This document shows positions 9,178 to 45,374 of a stretch of DNA of 52,723 nt, in pieces; the stretch's first letter is position 1; the number at the start of each line of letters is the position of its first letter. The notes under the pieces are model-generated. The model was given only the letters and a program-made list of their open reading frames with translations, ran no database searches and was not told the DNA's origin. The translations under genes and the position numbers were made by a program. The DNA is from a virus, in IMG/VR virus record IMGVR_UViG_3300027759_000119, positions 1-52,723 of that record; one strand, 5' to 3'.

Positions 9178-9552
9178 ATGACCACATTTATCGGCTTCAA
9201 CACCATCAATCAATTCAAAAAGTTCACACTCACAGACTTTGATTTAATTCAGAGAGACTTGTTGAACGCCTTTAGCATTCGTCAAGGTGAACTGCCTGGA
9301 CGTCCAGGATATGGCACTGCACTGTGGGACTTTGTGTTTGAAAATCAAGTTGAACAACTGTCACAACAACTACGTGCCGAAGTTCAACGTGTGGCAGGTG
9401 GTGATCCCAGATTCACCATCAATGATATACAGATGTTTCCCCAGGAAAATGGTATATTGATACAACTTCAAATCACTGTTATCAACACCACTAACGCTGA
9501 GATTCTCAGCATATTCTTCGACGAACAAACTCGTAATGCCAGTTACGTATAA
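9178..9552 (+). CDS. 25: gp25-like baseplate wedge subunit
   Basis: 124 residues against 132 in T4. The family core is clear: DLIQRDLLNAFSIRQGELPG followed by GTALWDFVFENQ, the gp25/GPW pattern in which a short sheath-like handshake domain carries a conserved (E/N)(P/N)-type turn. In T4, gp25 joins the gp6 ring and seeds polymerisation of the contractile sheath. The ATG at 9178 is chosen because the conserved N-terminus MTTFIGFNTINQFKKFT begins there. No ribosome site precedes it, and the promoter at 9165-9172 would give a leaderless transcript. Gene 6 follows 46 bases later behind its own late-promoter motif. Confidence 0.9.
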   Translation: MTTFIGFNTINQFKKFTLTDFDLIQRDLLNAFSIRQGELPGRPGYGTALWDFVFENQVEQLSQQLRAEVQRVAGGDPRFTINDIQMFPQENGILIQLQITVINTTNAEILSIFFDEQTRNASYV

Positions 9553-9598: not shown

Positions 9599-12500
9599 AT
9601 GGCAACAACCACAAGACAAACAGCAATATTTGGCGTAGAAGATTGGAAGCAAATCTACCAAACTTACCGCGAAGCCGACTTTCAAAGTTACGACTTTGAA
9701 ACTCTTCGTAAAAGTTTCATTGACTATTTGCGTTTGTACTATCCTGAAACATTCAATGACTACATTGAATCCAGTGAATTTATTGCCTTGCTGGATGTTA
9801 TGGCGTTCATGGGACAGGCACTGGCATTCCGTACAGACTTAAACACTCGCGAAAACTACATAGACACTGCTGAACGCAGAGATTCAGTGGTTCGTCTTGC
9901 TAACCTAGTGAGTTACACTGCCAAGCGCAACACAGCCGCAGAAGGTTTTCTCAAAGTATTCAACGTTACCACAACTGAAAATGTTGTGGATTACAACGGG
10001 GTCAATCTCAGCAATGTTACTATTAATTGGGCCGACCCAACCAATCCTGATTGGCAAGAGCAGTTTACAGCCATTATCAATGCCAGTCTTGTGGACAGTC
10101 AAAAAGTAGGCCGCCCAGGCAATCGACAGACCATTCTGGGCGTGGACACTGCTGAATATGGTATCAATTTAGTGTCAGGATTTTTACCTGTAATTCCTTA
10201 CACTGCCACAGTGGACGGCATTAGCATGCCTTTCGAAGCCACAACTTCTACTTCAGTTGGAAAAGACTATGTGTACGAACCTGCTCCTGCGCCCAACACA
10301 GTGTTCAACATGCTGTTTAGAAACGATCAACTGGGATTTCAATCAGCCAACACTGGTTACTTTTTCTATTTTAAACAAGGTATATTGCAAAATCAAGATT
10401 TTAATTTAGCTGAACGCATTGCCAACCGCACAGTGGACATCAACGTTGAAGGTGTAAACAACGACGATCGCTGGTTGTTTCAACTGGACAACATTGGCAA
10501 CATCAGCCGCGAATGGCAATTTGTTGAAAACGTGTATACCGCGGCTGAACAACGCAACAATATTTTGCAACCAATTTATTCAGTGACTTCTAGAGCCAAT
10601 GACCAAATTACCATGGTGTTTGGTGATGGGGTGTTTTCAGAGATCCCTGTGGGCATATTCCGTGCATATGTTCGTGCATCAAATGGTTTGCAATACATTA
10701 TCAATCCTGAAGAAATGCAAAATGTGGTGTTGCCCATCAGTTATACTGATCGCAACGGCAACTTGCAGACTATTACATTCACTTGTGGCATCACACGTCC
10801 TGTGAGCAACAGCCAAGCACGTGAACCCATTGGCGAAATCAAGCAACGTGCTCCTGCACGTTACTACACACAGAACCGCATGGTCAACGGCGAAGACTAC
10901 AACCTGTTCCCTTATACCCAATACAATTCAATTATTAAAAGCAAGGCGTTGAACCGTGCCAGCATTGGTACCAGTCGCTATCTTGACCTTGTGGACAACA
11001 CAGGCAAGTACTCGTCAACTAATACCTTCTCAAGTGATGGCGGTATATGGCGTCAAAATATTTTGCCAACTATTTTGTTTTCATACACCAACCGTAACGA
11101 GATTGCAGATATCATTACCAATCAGGTGCAACCTGATATTGATGGTAATACTGTGCGACAATTTTATTATTCAAATTTTCCGCGTATCACATCCACTACT
11201 CAACCTACAGGAATTACCTGGTTGAATGGTTATACCTGGAATCAAAGTACAACACTGGCCAATGAAACTACTGGCTATTTTAGAAACACAACTACCAGTG
11301 CTACCTGGCCTGATGGTACTCCTATTCCAGTGGGAGATACCACTACCACAATGTTTAAATATGTGATACCAGGCAGTTTGATCAAGTTTGTACCACCCAC
11401 TGGCTATTACTTTGACCGCAACAACAAGTTGGTCCAAGGTACCCCTATGAAAGCCGACGAACGCATGGAAATTTGGGCCAGTCCCCAACAAATCGTGGGC
11501 GATGGTTACAATGGCGGCCTGGGCAATCTAAGCACAGGTGCTGGACCGGTCACAATCAACAACTTTGTACCTTCTGGGGCAATTGTAGACACTATTATTC
11601 CGTTGTTTGTAACTGACCTCCCTAATGCTGTTGAACAAGCCATGGCCGAACAAATACTGTTGTACCGTAACTTTGGGCTAGGGTACGACAACAATGGTGA
11701 CATAACTGGTACCCCTTATACCTGGTATATCATATACAGCACTAATCTTGATGCATATTCACAAAGCAACTCTGCGCCATGGAGTCAACAGTATGCTGGC
11801 AATACATCTGGAGCCAATCTTGATGCCAGTTGGTTGGTGCAATTTGTGGTACAAAATCAAAACTACACTATCACATTCCGCGGGTTGAGTTACAACTTTG
11901 GGTCGGTACTGCAAACAAGATTTTTCTTCTACGAAGATCAACTGGTGTACGACAGTCGTACAGGTACAATTATCAAAGACTTTATTAATGTGCTGGCCGT
12001 GAATACACAGCCTGATTCAACAGCACCTCTACCTGGTGATATCTATACCACAATCATTGGGCAACCTGTAGAAAGCGATGGTTATGTTGACGATTTCCAA
12101 GTGTTGGTAAGTTATCGTGACAGTGACAATGATGGGGTGCCAGACAATCCAGATTTCTTTGATGAGATTGTTGGTAGTGCTACCACTGCTGGACCATTTG
12201 TGTTCTTGCAACAAACTGTGGACTTTGACAACTTGCAACGTTACTTGCTGGTTGAAGAAGGCATTGTGATATACAACTATGGTACATTGGACGAAATTGA
12301 ATTGGCCAAAACTGAATGGACACCAGGACAAGTGTTTTATGCCTATGAAGAAGATGCGTTTTATCAACTCAGTATCAGTGTAACTGGTGTGCGTACTATC
12401 ATTTCAGTAACTGGGTGGATTGCAAAAACTGGCAGACAAAGTTTGTATTTTCAATACCGTCATAACTCGCCACTGACCAACAGAATTGACCCAGGCTCTA

Positions 12501-13075
12501 CCAACATCATTGACTTGTATGTGGTCACACTGGGTTACTATACTTCATATCAGAATTGGTTGAGAGATACCACTGGTACTGTTACAGAGCCAGCATTACC
12601 CACCATTGATCAGTTATCAACTGACTATCAAGCACTGCAAGATTACAAAATGATTTCAGACAATATTGTGGTCAACTCGGTGATATTCAAACCACTGTTT
12701 GGTCCCAAGGCTGCACAAGAACTACGTGCCACTATCAAAGTCATACGTGCGCAGAATAGCACGGCCAGCACCAGCGAGATCAAGAGTTCAGTATTGGCAG
12801 AGATGAACACATATTTTAGCATTGACAAATGGAATTTTGGTGATACTTTCTACTTCTCAGAGTTGGCAGCGTATTTGCACCGTCAACTAGGAACCATTAT
12901 CAGTTCTGTGGTGCTGGTGCCATTAGACCAACAAAAGAGTTTTGGTGACTTGTATGAAATTCGCAGTCAGCCTAACGAAATTTTTGCAAATGGTGCAACC
13001 ATTGACAACATTGATGTTATTGAAGCATTGACCAGTACCAACTTGCGTACTGCACCTGGCAGTGGAGTAATTTAA
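9599..13075 (+). CDS. 6: gp6-like baseplate wedge subunit (baseplate J family)
   Basis: 1158 residues. The N-terminus is characteristic of gp6 of T4-like phages: FETLRKSFIDYLRLYYPETF, then IESSEFIALLDVMAFMGQAL and FRTDLNTRENYIDTAERRDS. gp6 forms the inner ring of the baseplate that holds the wedges together and changes conformation on contraction. T4 gp6 is 660 aa; the extra length lies in the middle (roughly 480-1000), which is strand-rich, with several Thr/Asn/Gly-rich stretches. The C-terminal part (about 1000-1150, with FKPLFGPKAAQELRATIKV and FYFSELAAYLHRQLGTI) returns to the family pattern. The stop TAA overlaps the next ATG (TAATG), so gene 6 and the giant gene are coupled. Confidence 0.88.
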   Translation: MATTTRQTAIFGVEDWKQIYQTYREADFQSYDFETLRKSFIDYLRLYYPETFNDYIESSEFIALLDVMAFMGQALAFRTDLNTRENYIDTAERRDSVVRLANLVSYTAKRNTAAEGFLKVFNVTTTENVVDYNGVNLSNVTINWADPTNPDWQEQFTAIINASLVDSQKVGRPGNRQTILGVDTAEYGINLVSGFLPVIPYTATVDGISMPFEATTSTSVGKDYVYEPAPAPNTVFNMLFRNDQLGFQSANTGYFFYFKQGILQNQDFNLAERIANRTVDINVEGVNNDDRWLFQLDNIGNISREWQFVENVYTAAEQRNNILQPIYSVTSRANDQITMVFGDGVFSEIPVGIFRAYVRASNGLQYIINPEEMQNVVLPISYTDRNGNLQTITFTCGITRPVSNSQAREPIGEIKQRAPARYYTQNRMVNGEDYNLFPYTQYNSIIKSKALNRASIGTSRYLDLVDNTGKYSSTNTFSSDGGIWRQNILPTILFSYTNRNEIADIITNQVQPDIDGNTVRQFYYSNFPRITSTTQPTGITWLNGYTWNQSTTLANETTGYFRNTTTSATWPDGTPIPVGDTTTTMFKYVIPGSLIKFVPPTGYYFDRNNKLVQGTPMKADERMEIWASPQQIVGDGYNGGLGNLSTGAGPVTINNFVPSGAIVDTIIPLFVTDLPNAVEQAMAEQILLYRNFGLGYDNNGDITGTPYTWYIIYSTNLDAYSQSNSAPWSQQYAGNTSGANLDASWLVQFVVQNQNYTITFRGLSYNFGSVLQTRFFFYEDQLVYDSRTGTIIKDFINVLAVNTQPDSTAPLPGDIYTTIIGQPVESDGYVDDFQVLVSYRDSDNDGVPDNPDFFDEIVGSATTAGPFVFLQQTVDFDNLQRYLLVEEGIVIYNYGTLDEIELAKTEWTPGQVFYAYEEDAFYQLSISVTGVRTIISVTGWIAKTGRQSLYFQYRHNSPLTNRIDPGSTNIIDLYVVTLGYYTSYQNWLRDTTGTVTEPALPTIDQLSTDYQALQDYKMISDNIVVNSVIFKPLFGPKAAQELRATIKVIRAQNSTASTSEIKSSVLAEMNTYFSIDKWNFGDTFYFSELAAYLHRQLGTIISSVVLVPLDQQKSFGDLYEIRSQPNEIFANGATIDNIDVIEALTSTNLRTAPGSGVI

Positions 13076-16000
13076 TGGCACGAACTAGATCAGTTGATTT
13101 TTTACCAGAAATTTTTAGAACTCCGGTTAACAAACAATTCTTAGCAGCAACTCTTGACCAAATGGTTCAAGAACCAAAATTTAAAAAGACACAAGGTTTC
13201 ATTGGACGCACGGTGGGTCCTGGCGTGAATCCCAATGACAGTTATGTAGTTGAACCAGATGTCACTAGACAAGACTATCAACTTGAACCAGGTGTTATTA
13301 GCCTCGAAGCCGATACTCAAAATGTCAAGAACGTCATAACTTATCCTGGCATGAATGATGCAATTGGATTCCAAGGCGGCGATCAGGCTCGTGCTGACCA
13401 ACTGTACAATAGTGAATATTATACCTGGGATCCATTTGTTGATTACGATGCGTTCATCAATTTCAGTCAATATTTTTGGTTGCCTAGTGGACCAGAAACA
13501 GTGGATGTACGGTCGCTTGGTGTCCCAACCAATGATAATTTTGTGGTCACAAGAGAAAATGGTGTTTACACGTTCTCAGGACTATCTGGTAACAATCCCA
13601 CAATTGATGTGGTGCGCGGCGGCAGTTATACATTCCAAGTAGCACAAAATACCAAAGAAACTGTGAACTATCGTGTCACAAACAATAGTACCACCTCATA
13701 CCTGATTGACTTCCAGGCCAACCCAACACTGACGTTGGCACGTGGTAATACCTATGTGTTCAACATTACACTCAATGGTGTATATCCTTTTTGGATCAAA
13801 ACTGCGCTGAGTCTGGGCACCGGTGATGCATACAATTCAGGCGTGTTGCGAAACGGCAGTAGTTTTGGTCTGGTGACATTTGTTGTGCCACAGGATGCTC
13901 CTGACACATTGTACTATGTCAGCGAGAATCAAACTAACTTGCGAGGCACAATCAACATTGTTGACGGCACGCCTGGTACTGGACCTGGATTTTGGATTCA
14001 AACCGCCCCGGGAGTGGATGGTGTTGTGCCTACAACTCCCAATCTCAGTAACCGCGGTGTTTATGGTGTGACCAACAACGGTGAAGACCTGGGCATAGTA
14101 ACATTTGACGTGCCACAAAAAACTGCACAAGAATTTTACTATAATCTCACCGACGTAGGCCCAATAGACTTGTTGACAGAATTAAAATTCAATCAAATTA
14201 ACAATCAGCCACTGGCACAATTTATTGAAACCTATGGCGGCATTGACGGTACCACATATCTCAATGGTCGTACACTGGTGTTTACAAATGATATTGCAGA
14301 TGCAGAAGATGGCGGCTGGATTGAAACCACATTCTATGACCCACTGCCTAGACTGGATTCATTCAACGGTGCAGTGGGCAGTTACGATTCTATCAACTTT
14401 GATCAGTCTACTCAAGTGCCACTGGCAGATCGATATCAAGTATGGCAAATTAGCACAGTAGACCGCAATGGTGTGGAATATATCAGCCTAGCAAAAATTG
14501 CTGATGTTGGGATCAATGAAAAATTTACCATCAGTTATGGCAACACATACAGCAATACCAGTTGGTACAAAAACGCTGTTGGTTATTTTCAACGCATACC
14601 TTTGTTGACAGCGTTGTTCAACGAGTTGTATTATCAGGATGGCACTGATCCAGAAATTTTTGGTAAAATTCGTCTGCTAGACCAAACAGAAACCAGTACA
14701 ATTTTTGTTGATCAGATCATTGGACAAAAAACTTATACCAGCCCCAATGGTGTGGCATTTACCAATGGTCTCAAAGTGCGTTTCACTGGTGATGTACTGC
14801 CAGTTAGTTACAGTTCAGGTACTACCACATTTACTTGTACTGCTACTCAAGCAGGCAGCAACTACATCACATGTAGTTCAACCGCAGGATTGTATGAAGG
14901 CGAAGAAATTGTATTCTCAGGCACTGCTGCTGGTGGCATTGTGGCTGGACAAAGCTATTACATCAAGTCTATAGCAGCCAATGGCATTCAATTCTCAATA
15001 GCCACTGTGACCGACGGCGCAACATTTGAATTGAGCACTGCCACTGTGGTAGGATTTACTGCGGTGGCCATTGCCAACAATGAATACTATGTAGCAGGAG
15101 TTGGCACAGCAATTGAATTGCTGCCAGTGCGAAACTTTGTTACTCCAGAAACTTATGTGGTTGATGCCAGAGACAGTACTATTGCCACAGAGCCAGGGGA
15201 AGTAGACTATCTCACAATTGATCGCGCCAGCAAAGATTTGAATGCATGGACTCGTAGCAATCGTTGGTTCCATGTAGAAGTTATCCAAGCCAGTGCCACC
15301 TACAACAATACTGTGGCCACGTTGGACAACAACTATCGCGCTAAAAGACCTATCATCAACTTCAGACCCAACATTAGATTGTACAACATGGGTACTGAAG
15401 GCAAACAGCCAGTGGACATCATTGACTTTTCAGAAACAGATGCACTTAGCAACATTGAAGGCAGCACAGGATACTCAGTTGATGGCTATACATTTGTCGA
15501 TGGTACTCGTGTAATTTTTGCCGCTGACTCAGACCCTGAAGTACGCGATAAAATTTATGTGGTGCAATTTATCACCCCCGACAGTGTGGCACCGTTGATT
15601 ACACAACCAATCATCACTCTTGTGCTGGCCAGCGACGGCGCAGTGTTGTTGGATCAAAGTGTGGTATGCCTTGAAGGAACCACACAAAAAGGTATAAGTT
15701 TTTGGTACGATGGTGTGCAATGGACCGAAGCACAACAAAAAACTAGCGTACAACAAGCACCGTTGTTCAATGTGTATGATTTGGCCGGCATCAGTTTTGG
15801 CGACCGAGCCAAATACCCATCCAGCACATTTACGGGCAGCAAATTGTTCAGTTATGCTGTGGGTGATACCGGCATACTTGATCCTATTTTGCAATTTCCG
15901 TTGCAATATTTGAACATCAACAACGTTGGTGACATTGTGTTTGAAAACAACTTGTACAAAGACACGTTTTTGTATGTAGAAGACAATGTGTCAATCACAT

Positions 16001-19000
16001 CAGACATTAGTTCGGGAGTGGCTAGAGAATACATAGACCGTACTACATTTGGCAAACTAATTGGTTGGCAAACTGCGGCAGCAAGCAGCCAACAATATCA
16101 ACAGTTTAAATTTACATACACTGGACAGACACTAAAACTTGATGTGGCAGTTGGTACTGCCACAGTGCTGCCCCCAATAAAAATTTATGTAAGTTCAGGT
16201 TACTTGATGCCTGATGAATACAGTTATCTTGTGGGCACTGACAACACAACTATTACTTTGATCAAAACTTATTTGCCCACAGATATCATTGAGGTGTTGG
16301 TGCTGAGTGAGCAGACCAGTTCAACTGCATTTTATCAGGTTCCGATCAACTTACAAAATAATCCGTTGAATACCAACAGTCCTAGTTTTACACTGGGCAC
16401 AATTCGCACACACTACGAAAGCATTTGCGAAAACTTGTTGACCCTGTCAGGCCCGGTCAACGGTGCAAACAACACCAGAGACTTGGGAAATCTTGTACCT
16501 TATGGCGCAACAATACTGCAACAAAGTTCTCCCCTGACCTTGGCTGGATATTTCTTGCGCAGTGAAAAATACAACATATTTTCAAGCCTGCAATACAACA
16601 GCAATGAATATTTGAAATTCAAAGGTCAGATGTTGAACACTGCAATTCAACAAGTGGTTCAATTTCAAACTGCCGGCGAAATACTTGATATTGCCATGGC
16701 TGACATCACTTTGGGACGTATTGAATCGCAGCCATTTTATTGGAGTGATATGATACCTGCTGGTGCAGTGTATCAAACCACAACATTTACTATATCAAAC
16801 ACCACCAACGATACATTTGATACTATTGATGTTTACAACTATACATCCGCCAACTATCAAGGCATGAATGTGTACTTGAATGGTGAGATTCTCACCAGAG
16901 ATCTTGATTATGTTGTGGCCACAGATGGTCCTCGAATTGTTGTATCAGTAACATTGACTTTGGGCGATGTGCTGACCATAAATGAATACTCTGCTACCTA
17001 TGGTAGTTTTGTGCCTAATACTCCTACCAAATTAGGTTTGTATCCTGCATTTCGTCCAGAAATTATCACACAAAAAACCAGCTCAGGCTCACAAACGGTA
17101 ATCGTAGGGCACGATGGCAGTATTACTCGAACATTTGGCGATATCAGAGATGATGTACTGTTGGAATTTGAAACAAGAATATTCAACAACTTGAAACTGG
17201 ACGGAAATCCCGTGCCAATCAGTATTACTGAAGTTCTCCCAGGGCAGTTCAGAAACACTGGATACAGTATAAGTGATATCAACAATATCTTGAGCACAGA
17301 CTTTTTGAGTTATGTGGCCTGGAACAAACTGGATTACAAAACACAAGATTACTCGGCTGCCAATGAATTTTCTTGGAACTACAGTGGAAGTACCAGTCGA
17401 TTAGACAATGCAACATTGCCCGGCGCATGGCGCGGCATCAATCGCTACTACTATGACACACAACAACCTGAAGAAACACCTTGGCAAATGTTGGGATTCT
17501 CAATTCGCCCAACCTGGTGGAATCTGGTGTACGGCGATGGCCCATACACTCAAGACAACTTGGTGTTGTGGGACGACTTGGAAGCAGGTTATGTTGCAGA
17601 CCCTGTTGCTCCGTATTATCTTCCAGAATATGCAAGACCTGGATTAACGTCAGTTATCCCCACCAGCACAGAAGGTGCATTATTAAGTCCGTTTGATTCA
17701 GTTGTGGGCACATACAATGATACCACGTTCCGCAAGAGTTGGAGTGTAGGTGACGGTGGCCCAGTGGAAGCATCATGGTGGAATAGCAGTGCATATCCAT
17801 TTGCTGTCATGCGACTGTTGGCATTGACTCGTCCCGCCAAATTCTTTGCATTGTTTGCAGATCGTGACTTGTACAAGTTTGACGCAGACCTTGATCAATA
17901 TCTCTACAACAATCGTTATAGACTCAATGCCAATGATTTGGAAATATACGGCAACGGAGTCAGCAAAGCCAGTTACATTGACTGGATTGTGGACTTTAAT
18001 CGCCAAAGCGGTATGGACAGCACTGCTGATCTCACTGCTGACCTTGGTGCACTGGATGTGAGATTGTGCTACAGAATGGCCAGTTTCTCAGACAAACAGT
18101 ACATCAAAATTTACACTGAAAAGTCTAGCCCTAACTCAACCAACACAACTTTCTTGATTCCTGACGAAAGTTATGACTTGGTATTGTACAAGAATCAACC
18201 ATTTGACCGTGCCAGTTATTCAGCAGTTGTGATACAAAAAGTTGCAGGTGGCTACGCAGTGTTTGGTTACAGCACATCACAGCCGTACTTCAACATAATT
18301 CAAAGTATCTACGCCGGACGTTTGCAAACTTACAGTGCAGGCGGTATCAGTGTACAAGTACCAACATTTTACACAAACAATGTTACGCAGATCCCATATG
18401 GATTTATTTTTGCCAGCGAAACAGCAGTATCTGACTTTTTGTTGAGTTATGGACAGTACTTAGAACGACAAGGTTTAGTATTTGACAATCGCACCAATGG
18501 GTATGAATTAAACTGGGGACAGATGGTCAATGAGTTTTTGTACTGGAGTCAGCAAGGTTGGGACGAAAATGCCTTAATTAATTTGAATCCATTGGCATTC
18601 AAACTCAGCATCTCTCGTGACAATGCTGTGGTAGATAGCATTGCTGCACAAACATCTGACAATATTCTATTAGATCAGAATCGTAGAGAGTTGCCCACAC
18701 GCAATCTTATTATCACACGACTAGATAACACGTTCACTTGTGAACCTGCCACAGATCAAACACTCAGTTATATTGATTTAAAATACACTTCTTATGAACA
18801 CATGATTGTGTTGAACAATGCCAGTGTGTTTGGCGATTTGATTTATCAACCTGTGACAGGTGCTCGTCAAAGTCGATTAAATTTAATTGCTGTGACCACC
18901 ACTGAATGGAACGGTTCAGTAGATGCACAGGGCTTTATTCTCAACCAAGACAACATTCAAGACTGGAATTCATATTCAACATATACCAAAGGCCAAATTG

Positions 19001-22000
19001 TCAAGTACAAAGGAGCCTATTGGTCAGCAGCCACGATTGTGCAACCCACAGCAGTATTCAACGCCAACGACTGGCTGGCCAGTGATTACACTCGTATTGA
19101 ACTGGGCTTGTTGCCTAACTTGGCCAACAAGGCAAACCAATTACAAAACAGTTACAATATAAACTCGGCCAATCTTGAAACAGACAATGACCTGTTGAGT
19201 TACGGCTTGATTGGATTCCGTCCGCGCCAATACATGACATCATTAAATCTTGATGATGTCAGCCAATTGAATGTGTACAGACAATTCTTAGGCTCAAAAG
19301 GTACCATACTCAGTGCCGAACTGTTTGCTCAGGCCAACCTGGGTAAAGAATCTGCGGACTACAGTATCTACGAAAACTGGGCAGTACAACGTGCAGTGTA
19401 TGGTGCCAATGCCAATCGCAGTTTCTTCCAGTTGCGATTGAATCGTGCATTGTTGGATTCCAACCCCAGTTTAATACAAATTGTCAATCCTCAGGAAACC
19501 AGTCAAGCAGATCAAACTGTTTTGGTGTCAGATATATGGCGCCAAAGTTACAATATCACTTCCCCAGACATACTGCCTACCACTACCACATTACCCACAG
19601 ACATAGCACTGCCAACAGCAGGTTATGTGAATCTCAATGATGTGGACATCACAGTGTTTAATATTGACAATACCGATAGTCTGGCTGCAAACATCAATTC
19701 AATTGGTGTTGGTACAAATGTATGGGTGGCAAAGATTAATGCATATGATTGGGCTATTTACAGAACTCAATCAGTTCCAGGCACTATCAATCACGTGTGC
19801 GACAACTTAGATGGAACCAGTTTGGTCATATTCTCTGGACAACACGGGCTCACAGCCAACGACAAACTGGTCATACGATTCTTTGACACCGAAGTTGATG
19901 GTGTATACTCTGTAATCAGTGTGGTAAGTCTTGACACAATCACTGTTGCATTTAGTTTTACAGGTGATCGTACAGTAGTCAACGGAACAGGGCTAGGTTT
20001 TACTTTACAAACTCAGCGTGTTGCCCAAGCCAGCGATGTATTGAATCTTCCTTACGCTAACACTATTGAACCAGGAGCCAAAGTTTGGGTAGACGACAAT
20101 GGCAGCGGACTGTGGACCGTGCTTGAAAAACAAGAAGTGTTTACTGAATTATTGGGATTGAGTCCTGCAGAAGTTGACCAAGGCGAACAATACGGCAGTG
20201 CAATAGCACAAGCACAAAATAGATATGCTGCCTTGGTTGGCAGTCCAAGATATCGATTCCCAGTAGGCGCCACACAATGGACCATTGCTAATGAATATGT
20301 TGAATTTTCAATTGTGTATGTGCCAGATCCTTTGCAGACAGAATTTTTCTATGCACCTGCACCTGTGCCACAAGGCATCAGCATTTATAACACTGCATAC
20401 TGGACTCCGTATCCATTGACCAACTTACCACCACGTGGCGGAGTTTATGTGTACGTCAAAAGCGACAGCAATGTGTATGCACCAGTCAGTGCCCTGGCAC
20501 CCAATGACGCTGTGTTAAGTCTTGATGTGTTAGACGTCAGTGGCGGCCCATACAATGGGCAAACTGCGGCACGTGAGTATGGTACTAGTGTGGATTTCGG
20601 CAATCAAACCTGGGCAGTGGCCGGAGCACCGGGCAGTTTAGGGTCAACTGGCACAGTGGACAATGGTTATGCTGTGGTCATTTTCAGAGATCCACAACTG
20701 GCGGCACCTGGAAATATTCCTTATGGCCAGTGGCAATTGTTGACCAGCCCAGGATCTATCACTGCCGCTGAAGAATTTGGTTACAGTGTTGCAATCAGTC
20801 AAGATGAACGCTGGATGTATATTGGCGCACCTGGTGCGAATGCTGTGTATGCATACGGCCGTGTGGACTGGGAGTTGCAGAATCTCAAAGCAGTGGGCGA
20901 TGGCGCAACCACCAATTATTTCATTGGCGATGTAATCAAGATTGATGCCAACACACAACTCACAGTCAGTGTTGACGGCGATGAACAAATTTTAGGCACA
21001 GACTATGTTGTGCTTAATTCATTGACCATGGTGGTGTTTACTACACCTCCTGCAGAAGGCAACGCCATTGAGATTATTAGAACCAGTCGTAAGATTCTTG
21101 ACTATCAAGCCACTTACAACGTAAGCCAGTCTGCAACCAGTGGTGCAGGACTAGGAGCCAAGTTTACTGTGGTGTATCAACGTAACGAAGTTGGACAGCC
21201 TGCAGCCGGCAAAGGCTTGGTATCAGTTACCACAGGTGGTGCAAATTACACAGTGTCTGACACTATAACTTTGAGTGCTGCCAGTTTTGGTGGCGCCCTA
21301 GCCAATGGTAACATCACTCTCACAGTGACCAGCATAGGTGCAGGAGGATCAGTTACTGGATTTTCCACTGCCTACACGCCGTCAGTGTTAGTAAGCACAT
21401 TCTCATTGAATGAATATTTGTTTAGTGCTGACAACATTTACAGTTTTACTTTGTTGGTAGATGGTGTAGTACAACGTCCTAACATTGACTATACATTTAA
21501 CAATGCCACATGTGATGTGACATTTGCAGCAGCATCTAATCCGCCCGCAGGTGCAAGTATTATTGTACGTGCCGAAGGCTATTTTGAATATTCAGGCACA
21601 ATCACATACGCCGGTTCACAAGCAGGTGATAGATTTGGGCACACAGTCAGCACCAGCACTGATGGTCGACAAGTATTGATTGGTGCACCATATACCACAG
21701 AATCTAGTCTCACCGAAGCAGGCACAGTGTATGTGTTTGATCGAGATGTACAGCGATTCTTCTACGGCACCGAAGGATCAACTGTGTCGTTTACAGTATT
21801 AGGATCAGTGTCAGAACCAGTTAGCGTGTTGGTCAACAACACATTCTTTGTGAACGAATTGAGTGCAGCACCTGATGAAACTGACACATTCTCAGTGAAC
21901 GGCAACACTATTACCATACTTGGCAATTTACAAGTGGGCGACATTATTGAGATTGAAACCAATAATTTCCAGTTTGTACAGGCAGTTGCACAAAACGCAG

Positions 22001-25000
22001 TAGAAGAGTTTTCTAACTTTGGATATGCAACAGACCTGTGCAGTTATAATTGCAGTTTGTATGTTGGAGCACTAAACAGCAGTCTCCAACAGTTAAAAGG
22101 TGGTGTGGTTGAACGCCATGTCAATCAAAGCCGTGCATATGGAATTACCACAGCCACAGTGGCCAATGCCAACTTAGATAGCGGCGATACTATCAGAATC
22201 AACAACCAAGATGTTGTGGTTCCCAATGCATGGAGTAATACTGCATCTTATGCAACAGATACTGTGGTGTACAACTTCAGTGCTGCCACTGCAATAACTT
22301 CAATATATTTGAGTTTGCAAAACGTACCTGCAGGCACTGCACTGTCCAACACTTCGTATTGGACAACAATCACAACAACTGCAATCACTGCCAGTGCAGA
22401 AGTACGTGCGTTGGCCGCACAAATCAATGTAGATGTGCCCAATGTACAGGCCACAGTTGACATTGACGGGTATTTAACTATTGCTGTTCAGAACTCAGCA
22501 GCAGCACCAGTGGGCAACAAACTAAATGTTGCACCAGGCAGTGTTGGCACTACATTTGCTGATCTTGAGTTTGAAACTTATGTGTTTACACAAACAATCA
22601 ACAGTCCATATCCTGCAGACTATGCAGGATTTGGCAGCAGTTTAAGTATAGAAGATAGTGCTATAAATCTAGTGGTTGGTGCACCTCGCGGCACATTGTA
22701 CTTGATCACAATTTTTGACCTCAACAACACTGTGTTTGACGAAGCGGCCACAGATTTCTTTGATCAAACTGTACAAAGTGGTGCAGTTTACACCTACGAT
22801 TTGTTGGCCAGTGCCACACCATCGGTCAGCAACCCAGACAAGTTTGTGTTTGGTCAACAAATTGACAATCCTGATGTGGTATCTTACGACCAGTATGGCA
22901 CAGCAGTAAACTACACCGATGGTGTGTTGTTCACAGGTGCGCCCGGCAACGAATTTGAAGACAGCACACTCACAGCAAACTATGGACGAGTATTTGTGAG
23001 TACCAACGAAACTCGCACACCTTCGTGGACTGTGTTGCGTGAGCAGAAACCTGTGGTAGATGTGAGATTGTTGAACTCTGTTTACTCATATGATAGACTC
23101 ACATCGGCCACCACACAGTATTACGATTTCTTTAATCCGCTGCAAGGCAAGATTCTTGGAGCCGCCAGACAAAACTTGGACTATATTGGTGCAGTAGATC
23201 CTGCCAGTTACAATGTTGGCCCTGTTGGCATACGTGGCACCACCTGGGGACAAAGTCGTGTGGGCGAGACCTGGTGGAATACCAGCACAGTGAGATTTAT
23301 TGATCCCAATCAGGATGATATTGTGTATGCAAGTCGTCGTTGGGGGCAAGTGTTTCCAGGCAGCACTGTGGACGTTTATCAATGGATTGTGAGCACAGCA
23401 CCTCCTGCAAACTATGTAGGGGAAGGAACTCCATATAGCATTGATAGTTATGTGGTAAACACTGTATTAAGTACCAATGGTATTTTTAATACTGAATATT
23501 ATTTTTGGGTGCGCGGTATAACTGCTACTGCCACACAAAAAGGCAAAACTCTGCCAGTCAGCACTGTGGCCAACTATATTGAGAACCCCAGAGCATCGGG
23601 TATAACTTATCTTGCACCCATTGATGCTAGTACCATTGCACTGTACAATGCCGGCAATTACATCAATGCACAAGACACTATCATCAGCATTGAGTTTGAC
23701 AAAGAACTCACTGAAGACAATGTTCACGTTGAATACGAGTTGGTTGCGCAGGATCGAGAAGACGCATTCATCAGCAGAAACTTATATCGCAAAATGCAAG
23801 ACAGTTTTTGTGGGGTTGATACCAACGGCAGTTTAGTACCTGACATCAATCTTGGAGTGGCAGAACGTTATGGTGTGCAGTTCCGCCCACGCCAAAGCAT
23901 GTTTGTGGATAGATTCGCAGCGTTGAGAAACTACTTAACTCGGGCCAACTCAGTGCTGGCAAGATATCCTATTTCTGAAAGCCGTCAATTTGTGTTGTTG
24001 AACAGCAGCGAACCTGAGCCATTGCCAGGATCGGGTGCATGGAACAAACGTGTGGAAAATTTAGAAATACTAGAGTTCCAAAATATCAGTACTGTAGCAT
24101 TGGGATACAAATATCTAGTAGTAAGCGATTCTAGCAACAGAGGACTGTGGACAATTTACACTGTTGAAGAAAGAGATACTGGTGCCGGTATTGTAAGAGT
24201 TTTGCAATTGACTCAGGTACAAAATTATGACACCACACAATACTGGAGTTATATCAATTGGTACTTGCCAGGATACAATAGCAGTAGCAAAATTATTGCT
24301 GAAGTTCCAAATGTAGCCAGTTTAGATACGTTGAATGTCTCTGTTGGCAGTAGTGTAAAGGTCACTGCCAATAGCCTGGGTAAATTTGAAATTTATTTAC
24401 GTGGTGCTACTGGATTTGAACGTGTGGGATTGCAAGATGGCACCATTGAATTTTCTGCACAATTATGGAATTACCAACTAGGACGGTTTGGATTTGACGT
24501 TGAAGTTTTTGACGCTCAGTATTATGACCAAGAACCTGTGATTGAAACACGCAAGATCATACAGGCCATCAATGAAGAATTATTCATTGATGATTTGCAA
24601 ATTGAACGCAATCGTCAACTGACATTGATGTTCAACTTTGTGCTCAGCGAATTCGCTGCTCCTGAATGGTTGGTTAAAACTAGTCTGATTGATGTGGAAC
24701 ACAGAATTCGTAGTTTGACCAAATTTCAAAACTACAGTCGTGACAATCAAGAGTTTGTGCTGGACTATATTCAAGAAGTCAAACCCTATCATGTGCAAGT
24801 CAGAGAATTTAACCTGCGATACAATGGCTTTGATCAATGGTTTGGAGACATAGCTGACTTTGATTTACCGGCATACTATAATACCAGTTTGCAGATACCT
24901 CAATTTACCAGTCCCATCTTGTTGCCGTATGCTCACAGTACTGCATTTAATTCTGAAACCAACACGCTAAGTGATTTACCAGCCAACTCAACAGTCTGGT

Positions 25001-28000
25001 CATCTTGGCCATATAGCCAATGGTACGGCAATTATCTATTGAGACTGGATTCTGTTGAATTGATCAACGGTGGGTCAGGTTACACTGAACCTCCTGTGAT
25101 TGAAATTACCCCTAACCCCAATGACCCTGCACCAGAAATACTAGCACAAGCCGTTGCGGTGTTAAATGGCCAAGGACAAGTTGTTGGCATAAATGTCACA
25201 GTCAACGGTGCAGGCTATCATTCCACACCAACAGTTACTTTCATTGGTGGCAATGGCTCTGGAGCCATTGCATATCCACGCATGACAAATGATGTTGTTC
25301 GTCAATTCCGTACAGTAATTAGATATGACCGATTCCAGTACCAAACTACTATACAGACTTGGAGTAGCCAAGGAACTTACGAAAACGGAACTTTGGTTCG
25401 CTATGATAATCGTGTATGGTCCGCACTCAATGCTGACGGCAGTAGTGCAGTAGTTGGCCCGACATTTGATCTAGAAAATTGGCAATTGGTCAACGCAGCC
25501 ACATACACTTATCCAGGCAGCACACAGGCCACTGGATTGACTGGTGTAGACCGAACTATGGGCCTGTACGTTCCTGGAGCCAATGAGTTTGGATTAGAGT
25601 TACCGCTGTTGGTAGATGGAGTAGACTATCCTGGCGTACAAGTATGGGGCGATTACTTCACAGGCACACAAACACTGGACGCCAACTATCAAAGTGAGTT
25701 TGCTGACATTTATCTCGGCGAACGTTTCTCAGACATCAATGTAGACGGCGGCGAGTTCATTGGACCATATGAAGGTCATGCACCAGAAGAACTGGTAAAC
25801 GGATCAGAGTACGATACCTTGGACATGCGTATCTACACTCGCCCAGGTGCAGACTGGCAAAACGACGGGCACGGGTTTCAAATTGGCACAATTCGTTACA
25901 CATTTGAACCAGGTATTACATTTGATTACAGTTGGGCTGGAATTGTAGAACATCCATTCAATATTGTTGTGTCTAATTTGACCACTGGTCGGGTGCTGAC
26001 CAGAGATATTGATTATGTTGTTAACTGGAACGACAGCACAGTTACCATCAACAACAATGTCAATTCAGGTGCTATTATCAGCATAGATGTTTATGAAATT
26101 GGTGGCGGAAGTCAGTTGTTCAAAGGCAACTACACAGGTGCAGATGTTATAGCAGACAACAAAACAATAATTATTCCAGTTGGATACAAAGAGATTGTGG
26201 ATGTTGATGTGTTTGTAAACGGCAATTTGGTAGCACTTCCTGAAATTGAACCATACACTGCCAGTCAAGTTTATAATCAAAACAACACGTATCAATCCAT
26301 TGATATTGTATTCAACAACAATCAACTGGCAGTGACCAACACAGTGAGTGTTTACAATTTGGTCACTTGTAATAACACCAGCGCATTAACAATTGGTCAG
26401 CCAATAGTGTTCACTGGCACAGTGTTTGGCGGAATTATTGCAGGACAAGAATACTACGTGCAGGGAATTCTCAACGGCACACAATTCTACATAACAAATA
26501 TTGCAGGGTCTACCGCTCCTTTGGCATTGACCACAGCGTCAGGACTAATGACTGGATCACCAAAAGGCGCATACTATCGTGCTATCCAAACAGTTCCTCC
26601 AGGAATTTTGTTGACTGACATCAACTATTGGATACCGTTTGTTCCTTCAGTTCGTAGCAAGATTAGAATTACTGCTTCTATCAGCGCCAATGATGAAATA
26701 TCAGTACTGGTATTAGGCGATGCAAACAGTATCACAGTGACTGATACTCAAGCATCGGGCAATGCTATTGTATTATTGGGATCAACTGCATCTTTAAGCG
26801 TGGGACAAACTGTCACATTCTCAGGTTATAGTTTGGGTGGTGTACTAACTGGAACTACCTACCAGATACTCAGTATCATTGACGACTCCATGAGCGCAAT
26901 TACTATCACAGAAGATGGTGTAACAGAAGTTTCTTTGATCGACGACGAAGCCGCTTGGTCTGGAGAATGTGTGGCAAAATTTGTGCCCACAACTTTTCAA
27001 AGTTGGAGCACTCCAGTAATTGAAACATTTATTGTAGATCAAAACATCATTGACAACGGATCAGTGGAAATAGATAATGCACCTACATTCAGCAACCCAG
27101 CCAACATGATTGTCATGGTCAATGGATATAGAATACTTGGCCCAAGTTGTATAGAATGGATTGGCGATGGCACCACATCTAGTTTTGGTTTGCCACAACG
27201 CATGGGCTCTAGTTTTTCTCAATCGCTTATTGATGCAGTCAATGACATACAGGTGTATGTAGATGGCGTGCTACAAAAACAATCATTTGGTGCCGAAGAC
27301 GGGGTATACAGTGTTACAACCTGGGATGGAAGCAATACTCCTGGACGACAAGTTGTGTTTGATACTGTGCCAGTTGACGGTGCAGTTATTTTAATTGCAG
27401 TCAGCACCATTGCAGACTGTGAGTTTGCATACAATCCTGTTGTGCCAGAATTTACATCTACCTTGCAAATTTCCAGCACACTTAACTTGGGCGATATTGT
27501 TCAAGTTATCACGTGGAATGATACCCGTGAACAAAATGCATTGACATTGACGTTTGCTGGCCCAGTACAAACAGGTACAACAATCTTTCAAGCATACGAT
27601 ACCACAGACTATGACAGCCCAACGCTGAATGATCCCACTCAACCACTGCCTGGCGAGTTTGCTTATGAAGTTGGCACATCAAGTCCAATCAATGACTTTG
27701 ACTTGTTGCGCACCAACATTGATGCCAGCAGATTATGGGTAACATTGGATGGCTATAGATTATTTGAAGGCAGTGATTATACAATTCAAGGACAATATTT
27801 AATATTAGCGCAAGGTGCAATTAGTGCGGCTGAAGAATTGATTGTCACTGAGTTTACTAATTCTGTTGTGCCAGAAGCAATAGCATTCCGTGTGTTCCAA
27901 GACATGCGAGGAGTACAAGCCACTTATAGAATGACCACAGCCACTACTACACAAGTGGCACAAACTGTCAGCGCCACAACCGATGTCATTTACGTGGAAA

Positions 28001-28596
28001 ATGCAGCAGCGTTGAGCGAGCCAGACTTACCTGCTGGTGTGTTTGGCATCATAACCATTGATGGCGAGCGTATTATGTACAGATATCGTAATCTAGTTAC
28101 CAACAGTGTTTCTGGATTGCAACGTGGCACAGCCGGCACAGCAACAAATAGTCATACTGTAGGCGCAGATGTGTATGACATTGGTCGTGGCAACTTGTTG
28201 AATGTTCAATACCAAGACTATGTGGTAAAAGACACAGGCATGGGCGATGGCACCACTGCGGTATTTTATGCACCTAGCATTGATATTGCTGATTTTGGTG
28301 ATTCTAGCACAATATACGTAGAAAGCATTGAAGTATATGTGGGCGGTACACGCCAATACAACTACAGTGATACTACAGCCAACAGTGAATATCGTTACAT
28401 TGTTTCTTTATTTGACCCATTGGCGATCGAGTTCATAGTTGATGATACGTACTCGGCGCCGGCTGCCGGCAGCGAAGTGACCATACTGCAACGCCGTGGC
28501 CAGACGTGGTATCAACCAGCCGACGGTAACCCCAGCAACGGTATTGCATTACAAGAAACTGATACAATAGCCGCAAGGTTTTTGTGTGACAGATAA
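13075..28596 (+). CDS. giant modular virion protein in the gp7/gp8 baseplate-wedge position, 5173 aa
   Basis: A single uninterrupted frame of 15.5 kb, 29% of the window. The N-terminus (SVDFLPEIFRTPVNKQFLAA, YTWDPFVDYDAFINFSQYFW) is the type seen in large baseplate/virion proteins of aquatic T4-like phages. Position directly after gene 6 is that of T4 genes 7 and 8, so a wedge role is inferred. Visible modules: a Gly-rich bacterial-Ig-like unit near residue 590 with relatives near 4430 and 4560; a conserved Trp-rich block at 1440-1750 (TPWQMLGFSIRPTWWNLVYG, ASWWNSSAYPFAVMRLLALT); six FG-GAP-like units at 2497-3310; a conserved block near 3860-3930 with RDNQEFVLDYIQEVKPYH; GGSGYT/GAGYHS repeats near 4000; then several copies of a small sandwich module (VYVDGVLQ ... 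DY) to the end. No signal peptide, membrane segment or catalytic motif is seen. Adhesion or baseplate scaffolding is likely. Confidence 0.7.
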   Translation: MARTRSVDFLPEIFRTPVNKQFLAATLDQMVQEPKFKKTQGFIGRTVGPGVNPNDSYVVEPDVTRQDYQLEPGVISLEADTQNVKNVITYPGMNDAIGFQGGDQARADQLYNSEYYTWDPFVDYDAFINFSQYFWLPSGPETVDVRSLGVPTNDNFVVTRENGVYTFSGLSGNNPTIDVVRGGSYTFQVAQNTKETVNYRVTNNSTTSYLIDFQANPTLTLARGNTYVFNITLNGVYPFWIKTALSLGTGDAYNSGVLRNGSSFGLVTFVVPQDAPDTLYYVSENQTNLRGTINIVDGTPGTGPGFWIQTAPGVDGVVPTTPNLSNRGVYGVTNNGEDLGIVTFDVPQKTAQEFYYNLTDVGPIDLLTELKFNQINNQPLAQFIETYGGIDGTTYLNGRTLVFTNDIADAEDGGWIETTFYDPLPRLDSFNGAVGSYDSINFDQSTQVPLADRYQVWQISTVDRNGVEYISLAKIADVGINEKFTISYGNTYSNTSWYKNAVGYFQRIPLLTALFNELYYQDGTDPEIFGKIRLLDQTETSTIFVDQIIGQKTYTSPNGVAFTNGLKVRFTGDVLPVSYSSGTTTFTCTATQAGSNYITCSSTAGLYEGEEIVFSGTAAGGIVAGQSYYIKSIAANGIQFSIATVTDGATFELSTATVVGFTAVAIANNEYYVAGVGTAIELLPVRNFVTPETYVVDARDSTIATEPGEVDYLTIDRASKDLNAWTRSNRWFHVEVIQASATYNNTVATLDNNYRAKRPIINFRPNIRLYNMGTEGKQPVDIIDFSETDALSNIEGSTGYSVDGYTFVDGTRVIFAADSDPEVRDKIYVVQFITPDSVAPLITQPIITLVLASDGAVLLDQSVVCLEGTTQKGISFWYDGVQWTEAQQKTSVQQAPLFNVYDLAGISFGDRAKYPSSTFTGSKLFSYAVGDTGILDPILQFPLQYLNINNVGDIVFENNLYKDTFLYVEDNVSITSDISSGVAREYIDRTTFGKLIGWQTAAASSQQYQQFKFTYTGQTLKLDVAVGTATVLPPIKIYVSSGYLMPDEYSYLVGTDNTTITLIKTYLPTDIIEVLVLSEQTSSTAFYQVPINLQNNPLNTNSPSFTLGTIRTHYESICENLLTLSGPVNGANNTRDLGNLVPYGATILQQSSPLTLAGYFLRSEKYNIFSSLQYNSNEYLKFKGQMLNTAIQQVVQFQTAGEILDIAMADITLGRIESQPFYWSDMIPAGAVYQTTTFTISNTTNDTFDTIDVYNYTSANYQGMNVYLNGEILTRDLDYVVATDGPRIVVSVTLTLGDVLTINEYSATYGSFVPNTPTKLGLYPAFRPEIITQKTSSGSQTVIVGHDGSITRTFGDIRDDVLLEFETRIFNNLKLDGNPVPISITEVLPGQFRNTGYSISDINNILSTDFLSYVAWNKLDYKTQDYSAANEFSWNYSGSTSRLDNATLPGAWRGINRYYYDTQQPEETPWQMLGFSIRPTWWNLVYGDGPYTQDNLVLWDDLEAGYVADPVAPYYLPEYARPGLTSVIPTSTEGALLSPFDSVVGTYNDTTFRKSWSVGDGGPVEASWWNSSAYPFAVMRLLALTRPAKFFALFADRDLYKFDADLDQYLYNNRYRLNANDLEIYGNGVSKASYIDWIVDFNRQSGMDSTADLTADLGALDVRLCYRMASFSDKQYIKIYTEKSSPNSTNTTFLIPDESYDLVLYKNQPFDRASYSAVVIQKVAGGYAVFGYSTSQPYFNIIQSIYAGRLQTYSAGGISVQVPTFYTNNVTQIPYGFIFASETAVSDFLLSYGQYLERQGLVFDNRTNGYELNWGQMVNEFLYWSQQGWDENALINLNPLAFKLSISRDNAVVDSIAAQTSDNILLDQNRRELPTRNLIITRLDNTFTCEPATDQTLSYIDLKYTSYEHMIVLNNASVFGDLIYQPVTGARQSRLNLIAVTTTEWNGSVDAQGFILNQDNIQDWNSYSTYTKGQIVKYKGAYWSAATIVQPTAVFNANDWLASDYTRIELGLLPNLANKANQLQNSYNINSANLETDNDLLSYGLIGFRPRQYMTSLNLDDVSQLNVYRQFLGSKGTILSAELFAQANLGKESADYSIYENWAVQRAVYGANANRSFFQLRLNRALLDSNPSLIQIVNPQETSQADQTVLVSDIWRQSYNITSPDILPTTTTLPTDIALPTAGYVNLNDVDITVFNIDNTDSLAANINSIGVGTNVWVAKINAYDWAIYRTQSVPGTINHVCDNLDGTSLVIFSGQHGLTANDKLVIRFFDTEVDGVYSVISVVSLDTITVAFSFTGDRTVVNGTGLGFTLQTQRVAQASDVLNLPYANTIEPGAKVWVDDNGSGLWTVLEKQEVFTELLGLSPAEVDQGEQYGSAIAQAQNRYAALVGSPRYRFPVGATQWTIANEYVEFSIVYVPDPLQTEFFYAPAPVPQGISIYNTAYWTPYPLTNLPPRGGVYVYVKSDSNVYAPVSALAPNDAVLSLDVLDVSGGPYNGQTAAREYGTSVDFGNQTWAVAGAPGSLGSTGTVDNGYAVVIFRDPQLAAPGNIPYGQWQLLTSPGSITAAEEFGYSVAISQDERWMYIGAPGANAVYAYGRVDWELQNLKAVGDGATTNYFIGDVIKIDANTQLTVSVDGDEQILGTDYVVLNSLTMVVFTTPPAEGNAIEIIRTSRKILDYQATYNVSQSATSGAGLGAKFTVVYQRNEVGQPAAGKGLVSVTTGGANYTVSDTITLSAASFGGALANGNITLTVTSIGAGGSVTGFSTAYTPSVLVSTFSLNEYLFSADNIYSFTLLVDGVVQRPNIDYTFNNATCDVTFAAASNPPAGASIIVRAEGYFEYSGTITYAGSQAGDRFGHTVSTSTDGRQVLIGAPYTTESSLTEAGTVYVFDRDVQRFFYGTEGSTVSFTVLGSVSEPVSVLVNNTFFVNELSAAPDETDTFSVNGNTITILGNLQVGDIIEIETNNFQFVQAVAQNAVEEFSNFGYATDLCSYNCSLYVGALNSSLQQLKGGVVERHVNQSRAYGITTATVANANLDSGDTIRINNQDVVVPNAWSNTASYATDTVVYNFSAATAITSIYLSLQNVPAGTALSNTSYWTTITTTAITASAEVRALAAQINVDVPNVQATVDIDGYLTIAVQNSAAAPVGNKLNVAPGSVGTTFADLEFETYVFTQTINSPYPADYAGFGSSLSIEDSAINLVVGAPRGTLYLITIFDLNNTVFDEAATDFFDQTVQSGAVYTYDLLASATPSVSNPDKFVFGQQIDNPDVVSYDQYGTAVNYTDGVLFTGAPGNEFEDSTLTANYGRVFVSTNETRTPSWTVLREQKPVVDVRLLNSVYSYDRLTSATTQYYDFFNPLQGKILGAARQNLDYIGAVDPASYNVGPVGIRGTTWGQSRVGETWWNTSTVRFIDPNQDDIVYASRRWGQVFPGSTVDVYQWIVSTAPPANYVGEGTPYSIDSYVVNTVLSTNGIFNTEYYFWVRGITATATQKGKTLPVSTVANYIENPRASGITYLAPIDASTIALYNAGNYINAQDTIISIEFDKELTEDNVHVEYELVAQDREDAFISRNLYRKMQDSFCGVDTNGSLVPDINLGVAERYGVQFRPRQSMFVDRFAALRNYLTRANSVLARYPISESRQFVLLNSSEPEPLPGSGAWNKRVENLEILEFQNISTVALGYKYLVVSDSSNRGLWTIYTVEERDTGAGIVRVLQLTQVQNYDTTQYWSYINWYLPGYNSSSKIIAEVPNVASLDTLNVSVGSSVKVTANSLGKFEIYLRGATGFERVGLQDGTIEFSAQLWNYQLGRFGFDVEVFDAQYYDQEPVIETRKIIQAINEELFIDDLQIERNRQLTLMFNFVLSEFAAPEWLVKTSLIDVEHRIRSLTKFQNYSRDNQEFVLDYIQEVKPYHVQVREFNLRYNGFDQWFGDIADFDLPAYYNTSLQIPQFTSPILLPYAHSTAFNSETNTLSDLPANSTVWSSWPYSQWYGNYLLRLDSVELINGGSGYTEPPVIEITPNPNDPAPEILAQAVAVLNGQGQVVGINVTVNGAGYHSTPTVTFIGGNGSGAIAYPRMTNDVVRQFRTVIRYDRFQYQTTIQTWSSQGTYENGTLVRYDNRVWSALNADGSSAVVGPTFDLENWQLVNAATYTYPGSTQATGLTGVDRTMGLYVPGANEFGLELPLLVDGVDYPGVQVWGDYFTGTQTLDANYQSEFADIYLGERFSDINVDGGEFIGPYEGHAPEELVNGSEYDTLDMRIYTRPGADWQNDGHGFQIGTIRYTFEPGITFDYSWAGIVEHPFNIVVSNLTTGRVLTRDIDYVVNWNDSTVTINNNVNSGAIISIDVYEIGGGSQLFKGNYTGADVIADNKTIIIPVGYKEIVDVDVFVNGNLVALPEIEPYTASQVYNQNNTYQSIDIVFNNNQLAVTNTVSVYNLVTCNNTSALTIGQPIVFTGTVFGGIIAGQEYYVQGILNGTQFYITNIAGSTAPLALTTASGLMTGSPKGAYYRAIQTVPPGILLTDINYWIPFVPSVRSKIRITASISANDEISVLVLGDANSITVTDTQASGNAIVLLGSTASLSVGQTVTFSGYSLGGVLTGTTYQILSIIDDSMSAITITEDGVTEVSLIDDEAAWSGECVAKFVPTTFQSWSTPVIETFIVDQNIIDNGSVEIDNAPTFSNPANMIVMVNGYRILGPSCIEWIGDGTTSSFGLPQRMGSSFSQSLIDAVNDIQVYVDGVLQKQSFGAEDGVYSVTTWDGSNTPGRQVVFDTVPVDGAVILIAVSTIADCEFAYNPVVPEFTSTLQISSTLNLGDIVQVITWNDTREQNALTLTFAGPVQTGTTIFQAYDTTDYDSPTLNDPTQPLPGEFAYEVGTSSPINDFDLLRTNIDASRLWVTLDGYRLFEGSDYTIQGQYLILAQGAISAAEELIVTEFTNSVVPEAIAFRVFQDMRGVQATYRMTTATTTQVAQTVSATTDVIYVENAAALSEPDLPAGVFGIITIDGERIMYRYRNLVTNSVSGLQRGTAGTATNSHTVGADVYDIGRGNLLNVQYQDYVVKDTGMGDGTTAVFYAPSIDIADFGDSSTIYVESIEVYVGGTRQYNYSDTTANSEYRYIVSLFDPLAIEFIVDDTYSAPAAGSEVTILQRRGQTWYQPADGNPSNGIALQETDTIAARFLCDR
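20563..23010 (+). repeat. six FG-GAP-like (integrin-type beta-propeller) repeat units inside the giant protein
   Basis: Units start near residues 2497, 2564, 2850, 2979, 3182 and 3271. Each has a Y/FG-x-S/T-V start, a short strand, then (V/I/F)xGAP or VGAL and a G-x-VYxF-type strand: for example EEFGYSVAISQDERWMYIGA, DRFGHTVSTSTDGRQVLIGA, YAGFGSSLSIEDSAINLVVG. Spacing is uneven because other modules are inserted between units. Integrin-type propellers have seven blades; I can identify six. Confidence 0.65.
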
Positions 28597-45276: not shown

Positions 45277-45374
45277 AATGGTTACGCAGAATTTGGGATA
45301 GAATTACCCTAGAAATACGCTATAGGAAAAAACTAAAAGAACTTCGCAAACGAGATCCATTCATCTATAAATGA
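45273..45374 (+). CDS. 33-residue basic amphipathic peptide gene
   Basis: A very short gene joining its neighbours by four-base overlaps on both sides (ATGA at 45273 and again at 45371). It has a clear AGGAG ribosome site at 45262-45266. The peptide is strongly basic: WLRRIWDR, then IRYRKKLKELRKRDPFIYK, predicted to form an amphipathic helix ending in a DPFIYK tail. I recall similar RKKDPFIY-ending peptides in aquatic T4-like phages, which supports a real gene. It could bind membrane, nucleic acid or a partner enzyme. Because it sits after six radical SAM genes, a precursor-peptide role deserves testing, although it has no Cys and few residues typical of thioether substrates. Confidence 0.7.
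   Translation: MKWLRRIWDRITLEIRYRKKLKELRKRDPFIYK

Follow-up and report, generated by a model that had tools for sequence, protein, structure and literature searches.

Integrin alpha subunits (alpha5, alphaV, alpha4 and alphaIIb; PDB entries 4wk2, 4irz and 4wjk) carry a propeller of seven FG-GAP blades, and their loops can host inserted domains such as the alpha-I domain. An integrin-like fold is already known in jumbo-phage proteins as well: the “hemagglutinin” gp213 of Sinorhizobium phage AP-J-162 was reported to be structurally similar to human integrin (PMC11242549), and a review of jumbo-phage domains describes lectin and discoidin domains in virion proteins, with propellers, integrins and FG-GAP unmentioned (PMC7824862). 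In the literature we searched for FG-GAP in phage baseplates, tails and virions there was no phage case, gp213 being the sole integrin precedent. Here we analyse a viral record of 52,723 bases (IMG/VR IMGVR_UViG_3300027759_000119; this whole stretch is referred to as the window), a jumbo-phage fragment in which a structural protein of 5173 amino acids (aa) contains a propeller of the integrin kind. What is new is its setting within a giant baseplate-associated protein, with further modules nested in it, of which we found no description in the literature searched. The best account of the domain, and by our estimate a somewhat better than even one, is that it serves host-surface recognition as part of a giant baseplate-associated protein, in a jumbo phage of the RaK2/Atu_ph07 type. 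The protein, the domain and its blades are laid out as follows:

13075..28596, + strand: giant virion structural protein, 5173 aa, phrog_10938 family by profile matches, host of the propeller
20143..23019, + strand: seven-bladed FG-GAP propeller domain, residues 2357-3315, from profile, FG glycines and model
20143..20160, + strand: N-terminal strand TELLGL, residues 2357-2362, proposed as strand D of blade 7 from DSSP and strand order
20188..20523, + strand: blade 1, residues 2372-2483, FG glycine 2374
20572..20745, + strand: blade 2, FG glycine 2503
20770..20865, + strand: blade 3, strands A-C, FG glycine 2569
21580..21603, + strand: blade 3, strand D
21628..21762, + strand: blade 4, strands A-C, FG glycine 2855, the best FG-GAP_2 match
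21961..21987, + strand: blade 4, strand D
22012..22125, + strand: blade 5, strands A-C, FG glycine 2983
22579..22599, + strand: blade 5, strand D
22624..22860, + strand: blade 6, FG glycine 3187
22888..23004, + strand: blade 7, strands A-C, FG glycine 3275

Each of the seven FG glycines is present in 50-51 of the 51 homologues on which the alignment, conservation and motif counts are based, and the glycine of the GAP string in 48-51 of them. The Pfam profile FG-GAP_2 (PF14312) matches the sequence studied with E 1.8e-13 (50.9 bits vs a cut-off of 23) and 50/51 homologues at E <= 0.01 (best 3e-19), so the units are not due to chance; Pfam FG-GAP (PF01839) gave no match in the window, FG-GAP_2 being the fitting model. 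By segment lengths a bare blade takes up about 53-72 residues, with extra material at set points, and blade 6 has a 25-residue loop of nearly fixed length among homologues. An earlier note on this DNA had placed six such units at residues 2497-3310 of the same open reading frame (ORF), that is at 20563-23010. All six are real, but a search for a seventh blade found one that had been missed just upstream, beginning GEQYGSAIAQAQNRYAALVGSP...GGVYVYV, and the domain starts at about 20143 rather than at 20563. The ring would be closed by the N-terminal strand, which in the predicted structure may complete blade 7. Calcium sites, which the same note had suggested looking for, did not turn up: the A-B loops of all seven blades are free of any DxDxDG-type motif across the 51 sequences. 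The A-B loop of blade 5 has an invariant CxxxC (residues 2989-2993; 22039-22053), placed where integrin blades have their calcium-binding loop; the two cysteines might form a disulphide or bind a metal.

Structure prediction leads to the same fold. With an AlphaFold2 model made from the 51 sequences (mean predicted local distance difference test, pLDDT, 86.7; predicted template-modelling score, pTM, 0.87), a structure search of the PDB returned integrin alpha headpieces on top (4irz, E 1.3e-7), and alpha5 propellers reached a template-modelling score relative to the target (TMt) of 0.53-0.55, with 4wk0 and 4wjk at 0.54-0.55. For a relative with smaller inserts (L030; pLDDT 86.4, pTM 0.88) the top match was alpha5 4wk2 (E 1.8e-8, TMt 0.58), and that model also matches the N-terminal part of the tailspike TSP4 of phage CBA120. 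The root-mean-square deviation (rmsd) to the best integrin matches is large, 7-18 A over long gapped alignments, as expected because of the inserts. The DSSP strand list is compatible with strands A-D in each blade, and the count of seven was derived from the sequence together with DSSP and the match to integrin. Sequence and models predict a single inserted domain, an FG-GAP propeller of seven blades that has the fold of integrin alpha and is free of calcium loops; in this respect the earlier proposal of an integrin-like propeller is borne out by profile, conservation and both models.

The differences from the described systems are nevertheless considerable. Compared to integrin alpha, the phage domain lacks the calcium loops, shares ~10% identity and is part of a phage protein; its blades 3-5 carry large inserts at their C-D side, and no beta subunit is known. 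AP-J-162 gp213 and Atu_ph07 gp320 are likewise jumbo-phage proteins with integrin-like or FG-GAP_2 features, gp320 being among the fold matches to the model of the sequence studied (TMt 0.64), but they are small separate proteins of ~375-394 aa, without inserts on this scale. Giant viruses of eukaryotes (Megaviridae, Pithovirus) supply further fold matches, in BFVD; these proteins also have FG-GAP repeats but come from unrelated viruses and another protein context. We note that Atu_ph07 gp320, annotated “hemagglutinin” (L107, 7019-8200), has two FG-GAP_2 matches and adjoins genes annotated as tail sheath, and that Phosso (L105) has 42 FG-GAP_2 matches, mostly in two adjacent unannotated giant ORFs of ~3160 and ~3690 aa (48338-68978).

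The earlier note had also described modules interrupting the propeller between its blades. Such inserts exist, but the large ones lie within blades 3, 4 and 5, in the C-D loops, and two mini-modules accompany them:

20866..21579, + strand: insert 1, residues 2598-2835, C-D loop of blade 3, two T7-tail-fibre-like modules flanking a glycine-rich module
21763..21960, + strand: insert 2, residues 2897-2962, C-D loop of blade 4, with weak likeness to T7-type modules
22126..22578, + strand: insert 3, residues 3018-3168, C-D loop of blade 5, Flagellin_IN-like
20275..20412, + strand: CBM5/12-like (carbohydrate-binding) mini-module, residues 2401-2446, B-C loop of blade 1
22228..22368, + strand: CBM5/12-like mini-module within insert 3, residues 3052-3098, present in 24/51 relatives

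The two modules of insert 1 that resemble the N-terminal domain of the T7 tail fibre form a related pair (hhalign probability 96), and the glycine-rich module between them occurs in 39/51 relatives. The flagellin hook IN motif matches 10/51 members and, on our reading of the sequence, this match would fall in insert 3. The mini-modules, each of ~46 residues, match one another (probability 95) and vary in their presence among relatives, that of blade 1 being missing from most other clades. Extra modules are found in other loops of single relatives (a 216-residue segment in blade 4 of L104, and one of 148 in blade 2 of L059), which shows inserts to change place.

With regard to divergence, in most comparisons with relatives no region is less conserved than the propeller (73% vs 79-90% elsewhere for L043; 62% vs 62-81% for L071). 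The strands are conserved while the top loops and inserts diverge; within the L043 propeller, for instance, strands stand at 84% and top loops at 70%. The ratio of nonsynonymous to synonymous substitution rates (dN/dS) is low throughout, 0.03-0.14, and that of the propeller (0.066-0.144) exceeds that of the adjoining conserved regions, by some 2-2.5 fold in the more distant pairs. Trees of the propeller and of its flanks disagree: 13/30 and 8/22 supported splits are in conflict, as compared to 5/30 and 2/22 between one flank and the other. In approximately unbiased (AU) tests on the flank data, two groupings of the propeller tree are rejected, L043+L044 (p 5.9e-48) and L031+L053+L055 (p 1.3e-15), and synonymous divergence between L043 and L044 is 0.76 in the propeller vs 1.0-2.1 elsewhere. 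Because of this conflict, the rejected groupings and the lower synonymous divergence, the propeller cassette has likely been exchanged between some lineages, as far as sequence comparison can show.

The propeller occupies a slot in the giant protein that can be followed across jumbo phages by its two edges:

20080..20133, + strand: beta-hairpin KVWVDDNGSGLWTVLEKQ just before the propeller, the left edge of the slot
23023..23073, + strand: right edge of the slot, SWTVLREQKPVVDVRLL, with a flank kept in 7/7 distant relatives

A model of the right flank matches all seven distant relatives (E 6.5e-19 to 5.9e-32), the matches starting at or soon after SWTVLREQKPVVD; on the left, similarity fades gradually (E 1.8e-6 to 0.03). 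From anchor to anchor the length is ~85-130 residues in CBB, PA5oct, RaK2 and Vibrio 2.275.O, ~400 in SCTP-2, ~1055-1067 in the rhizobial Phosso and Atu_ph07, and ~1090 here, and the giant proteins of Atu_ph07 and Phosso have no FG-GAP match. These lengths are compatible with either filling or emptying of the slot. Residues ~2130-2340 of the giant ORF of SCTP-2 (L005), just before the slot, look by eye like a LamG/ConA lectin; Pfam gave no match on that stretch. We speculate, tentatively and with more doubt than belief, that the slot is an exchangeable position for entire recognition domains, occupied differently from lineage to lineage: by the propeller with its nested glycan-binding modules in this group, by an unrelated array of ~1060 aa in the two rhizobial phages and possibly, close to the slot in SCTP-2, by a domain resembling a lectin. 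Swapping them would then change host recognition from within a core baseplate protein, beyond what separate fibre genes provide.

Receptor binding by the propeller is plausible from these sequence comparisons because of its low conservation, the tree conflict, the variable inserts and the nearly empty slot in other phages. By convention the lower face of a propeller carries the C-D loops and the two chain ends, and the upper face the B-C and D-A loops. The lower face, where both chain ends exit, would join the body of the protein, and the upper face, with its B-C and D-A loops and, in this clade, the carbohydrate-binding-like module of blade 1, would point outward and, at adsorption, bind a ligand on the host surface, of which a glycan is the most probable kind. 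With the blades as a conserved scaffold, the loops, the nested modules and sometimes the whole cassette may then change, following the host surface.

Several observations weigh against host recognition. Other jumbo phages manage without the domain, and the closest relative (L009) has no contrast between propeller and rest. The C-terminal part of the giant protein is similarly divergent and its dN/dS similarly raised; values far below 1 give no sign of positive selection, and the raised divergence of the propeller can be relaxed constraint. As for exchange, the AU-test clades were picked after the trees had been seen, and none of the flank clades tested is rejected when the propeller data are used (p 0.06-0.14). 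The likeness of the mini-modules to the chitin-binding CBM5/12, seen by eye, is weak in Pfam, with a PF02839 hit in 1/21 members at E 0.087 and none in 51 at 0.01, and the inserts are as similar to fibre-attachment modules as to lectins.

This last point keeps alive another function, namely that the propeller and its inserts are a docking platform that holds virion proteins such as tail fibres or spikes, with recognition residing in the docked proteins. We regard this as unlikely on the whole yet as the most serious competitor. Insert 1 matches the N-terminal (attachment) domain of the T7 tail fibre in 12/51 members, the minimal model of L030 has the N-terminal part of CBA120 TSP4 among its PDB matches, and the gene sits among tail genes and has a fibre-like one downstream. 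T7-type modules, however, recur weakly elsewhere in the same giant protein and are maybe generic building blocks, and the variable mini-modules, divergent upper loops and cassette exchange suit recognition better, even if docked proteins could co-vary.

A passive role is considerably less probable. A domain that simply spaces or stabilises an oversized baseplate, evolving with relaxed constraint and without a specific partner, would be in keeping with the short slot of RaK2, CBB, PA5oct and Vibrio 2.275.O, which lack the propeller, with the low dN/dS and absence of positive selection, and with a C-terminal part that diverges almost as fast. It sits poorly with the presence of seven units in all homologues sampled, clearly constrained blade strands, the nearly fixed length of the blade 6 loop and the exchange of the cassette between lineages. 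Adhesion to extracellular matrix, mucilage, particles or other virions, which would raise the encounter rate, is more doubtful again: propellers and CBM-like modules often bind glycans and one insert is Flagellin_IN-like, but no result points specifically to a target other than the host. Finally, a series of separate beta-sandwiches in which FG-GAP-like strings occur by chance, which the earlier note had named as the outcome that would overturn its proposal, could draw on the large rmsd and uninspected coordinates, yet it can practically be dismissed in view of FG-GAP_2 matches in 50/51 homologues, seven regular units and two confident models led by integrin alpha.

The assignment to the baseplate is drawn from the family of the giant protein and from its neighbours. 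The phrog_10938 profile matches the ORF on both sides of the propeller (E 8.1e-237 and 9.1e-67), and the record of the PA5oct homologue marks its detection by electrospray ionisation tandem mass spectrometry (ESI-MS/MS) in the virion. Neither portions of the giant protein nor a profile of its family had a significant match in PDB sequence searches. The ORF directly follows two wedge genes:

9178..9552, + strand: gp25-like baseplate wedge subunit, 124 aa, phrog_43
9599..13075, + strand: gp6-like baseplate wedge subunit, 1158 aa, phrog_10646

The relatives of the gp6-like protein that align along most of their own length, at ~31-39% identity, come from RaK2, PA5oct, Atu_ph07 and similar jumbo phages, and in most of these the next gene encodes a giant structural protein related to the present one both before and after the propeller; SCTP-2 has its gp6-like gene elsewhere in the genome. 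RaK2 gp465, PA5oct gp355 and Atu_ph07 gp180 (phrog_10938) thus share the flanks and the place after the gp6-like gene, but lack the FG-GAP propeller. By gene order the ORF would take the place of gp7 in T4. Homology to T4 gp7 was not found by profile comparison (hhalign probability 0.1%, E 0.54), so that gene order alone agrees, and for this reason “baseplate-associated” is a safer label than “gp7”. The earlier description as a phage baseplate protein holds, then, as far as gene neighbours and virion detection of the homologue go, and finds no support from gp7.

After the tail genes, about five radical S-adenosylmethionine (SAM) ORFs lie in a run at 35332-44258, two of them with SPASM domains (39133-40395, E 8.6e-11; 40392-41600, E 1.8e-5), followed at 45371-46855 by a Nol-like carbamoyltransferase (phrog_1601, E 2.2e-92). 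In Phosso a radical SAM gene likewise comes after the giant protein.

At least 335 candidate stretches of IMG/VR code for relatives of the propeller, their contigs reaching 364 kb in length, and a search of the named phage collection at 1e-5 returned none, nor did one of cellular genomes. With so many relatives in IMG/VR and none among named phages, the propeller marks a common, apparently uncultured phage group. If it does bind the host, an adhesive fold of animal integrins would be in use by jumbo phages inside the baseplate-associated protein itself, with loop inserts and exchange of the whole cassette as the means of change, and the propeller offers a defined domain for tests of adsorption.

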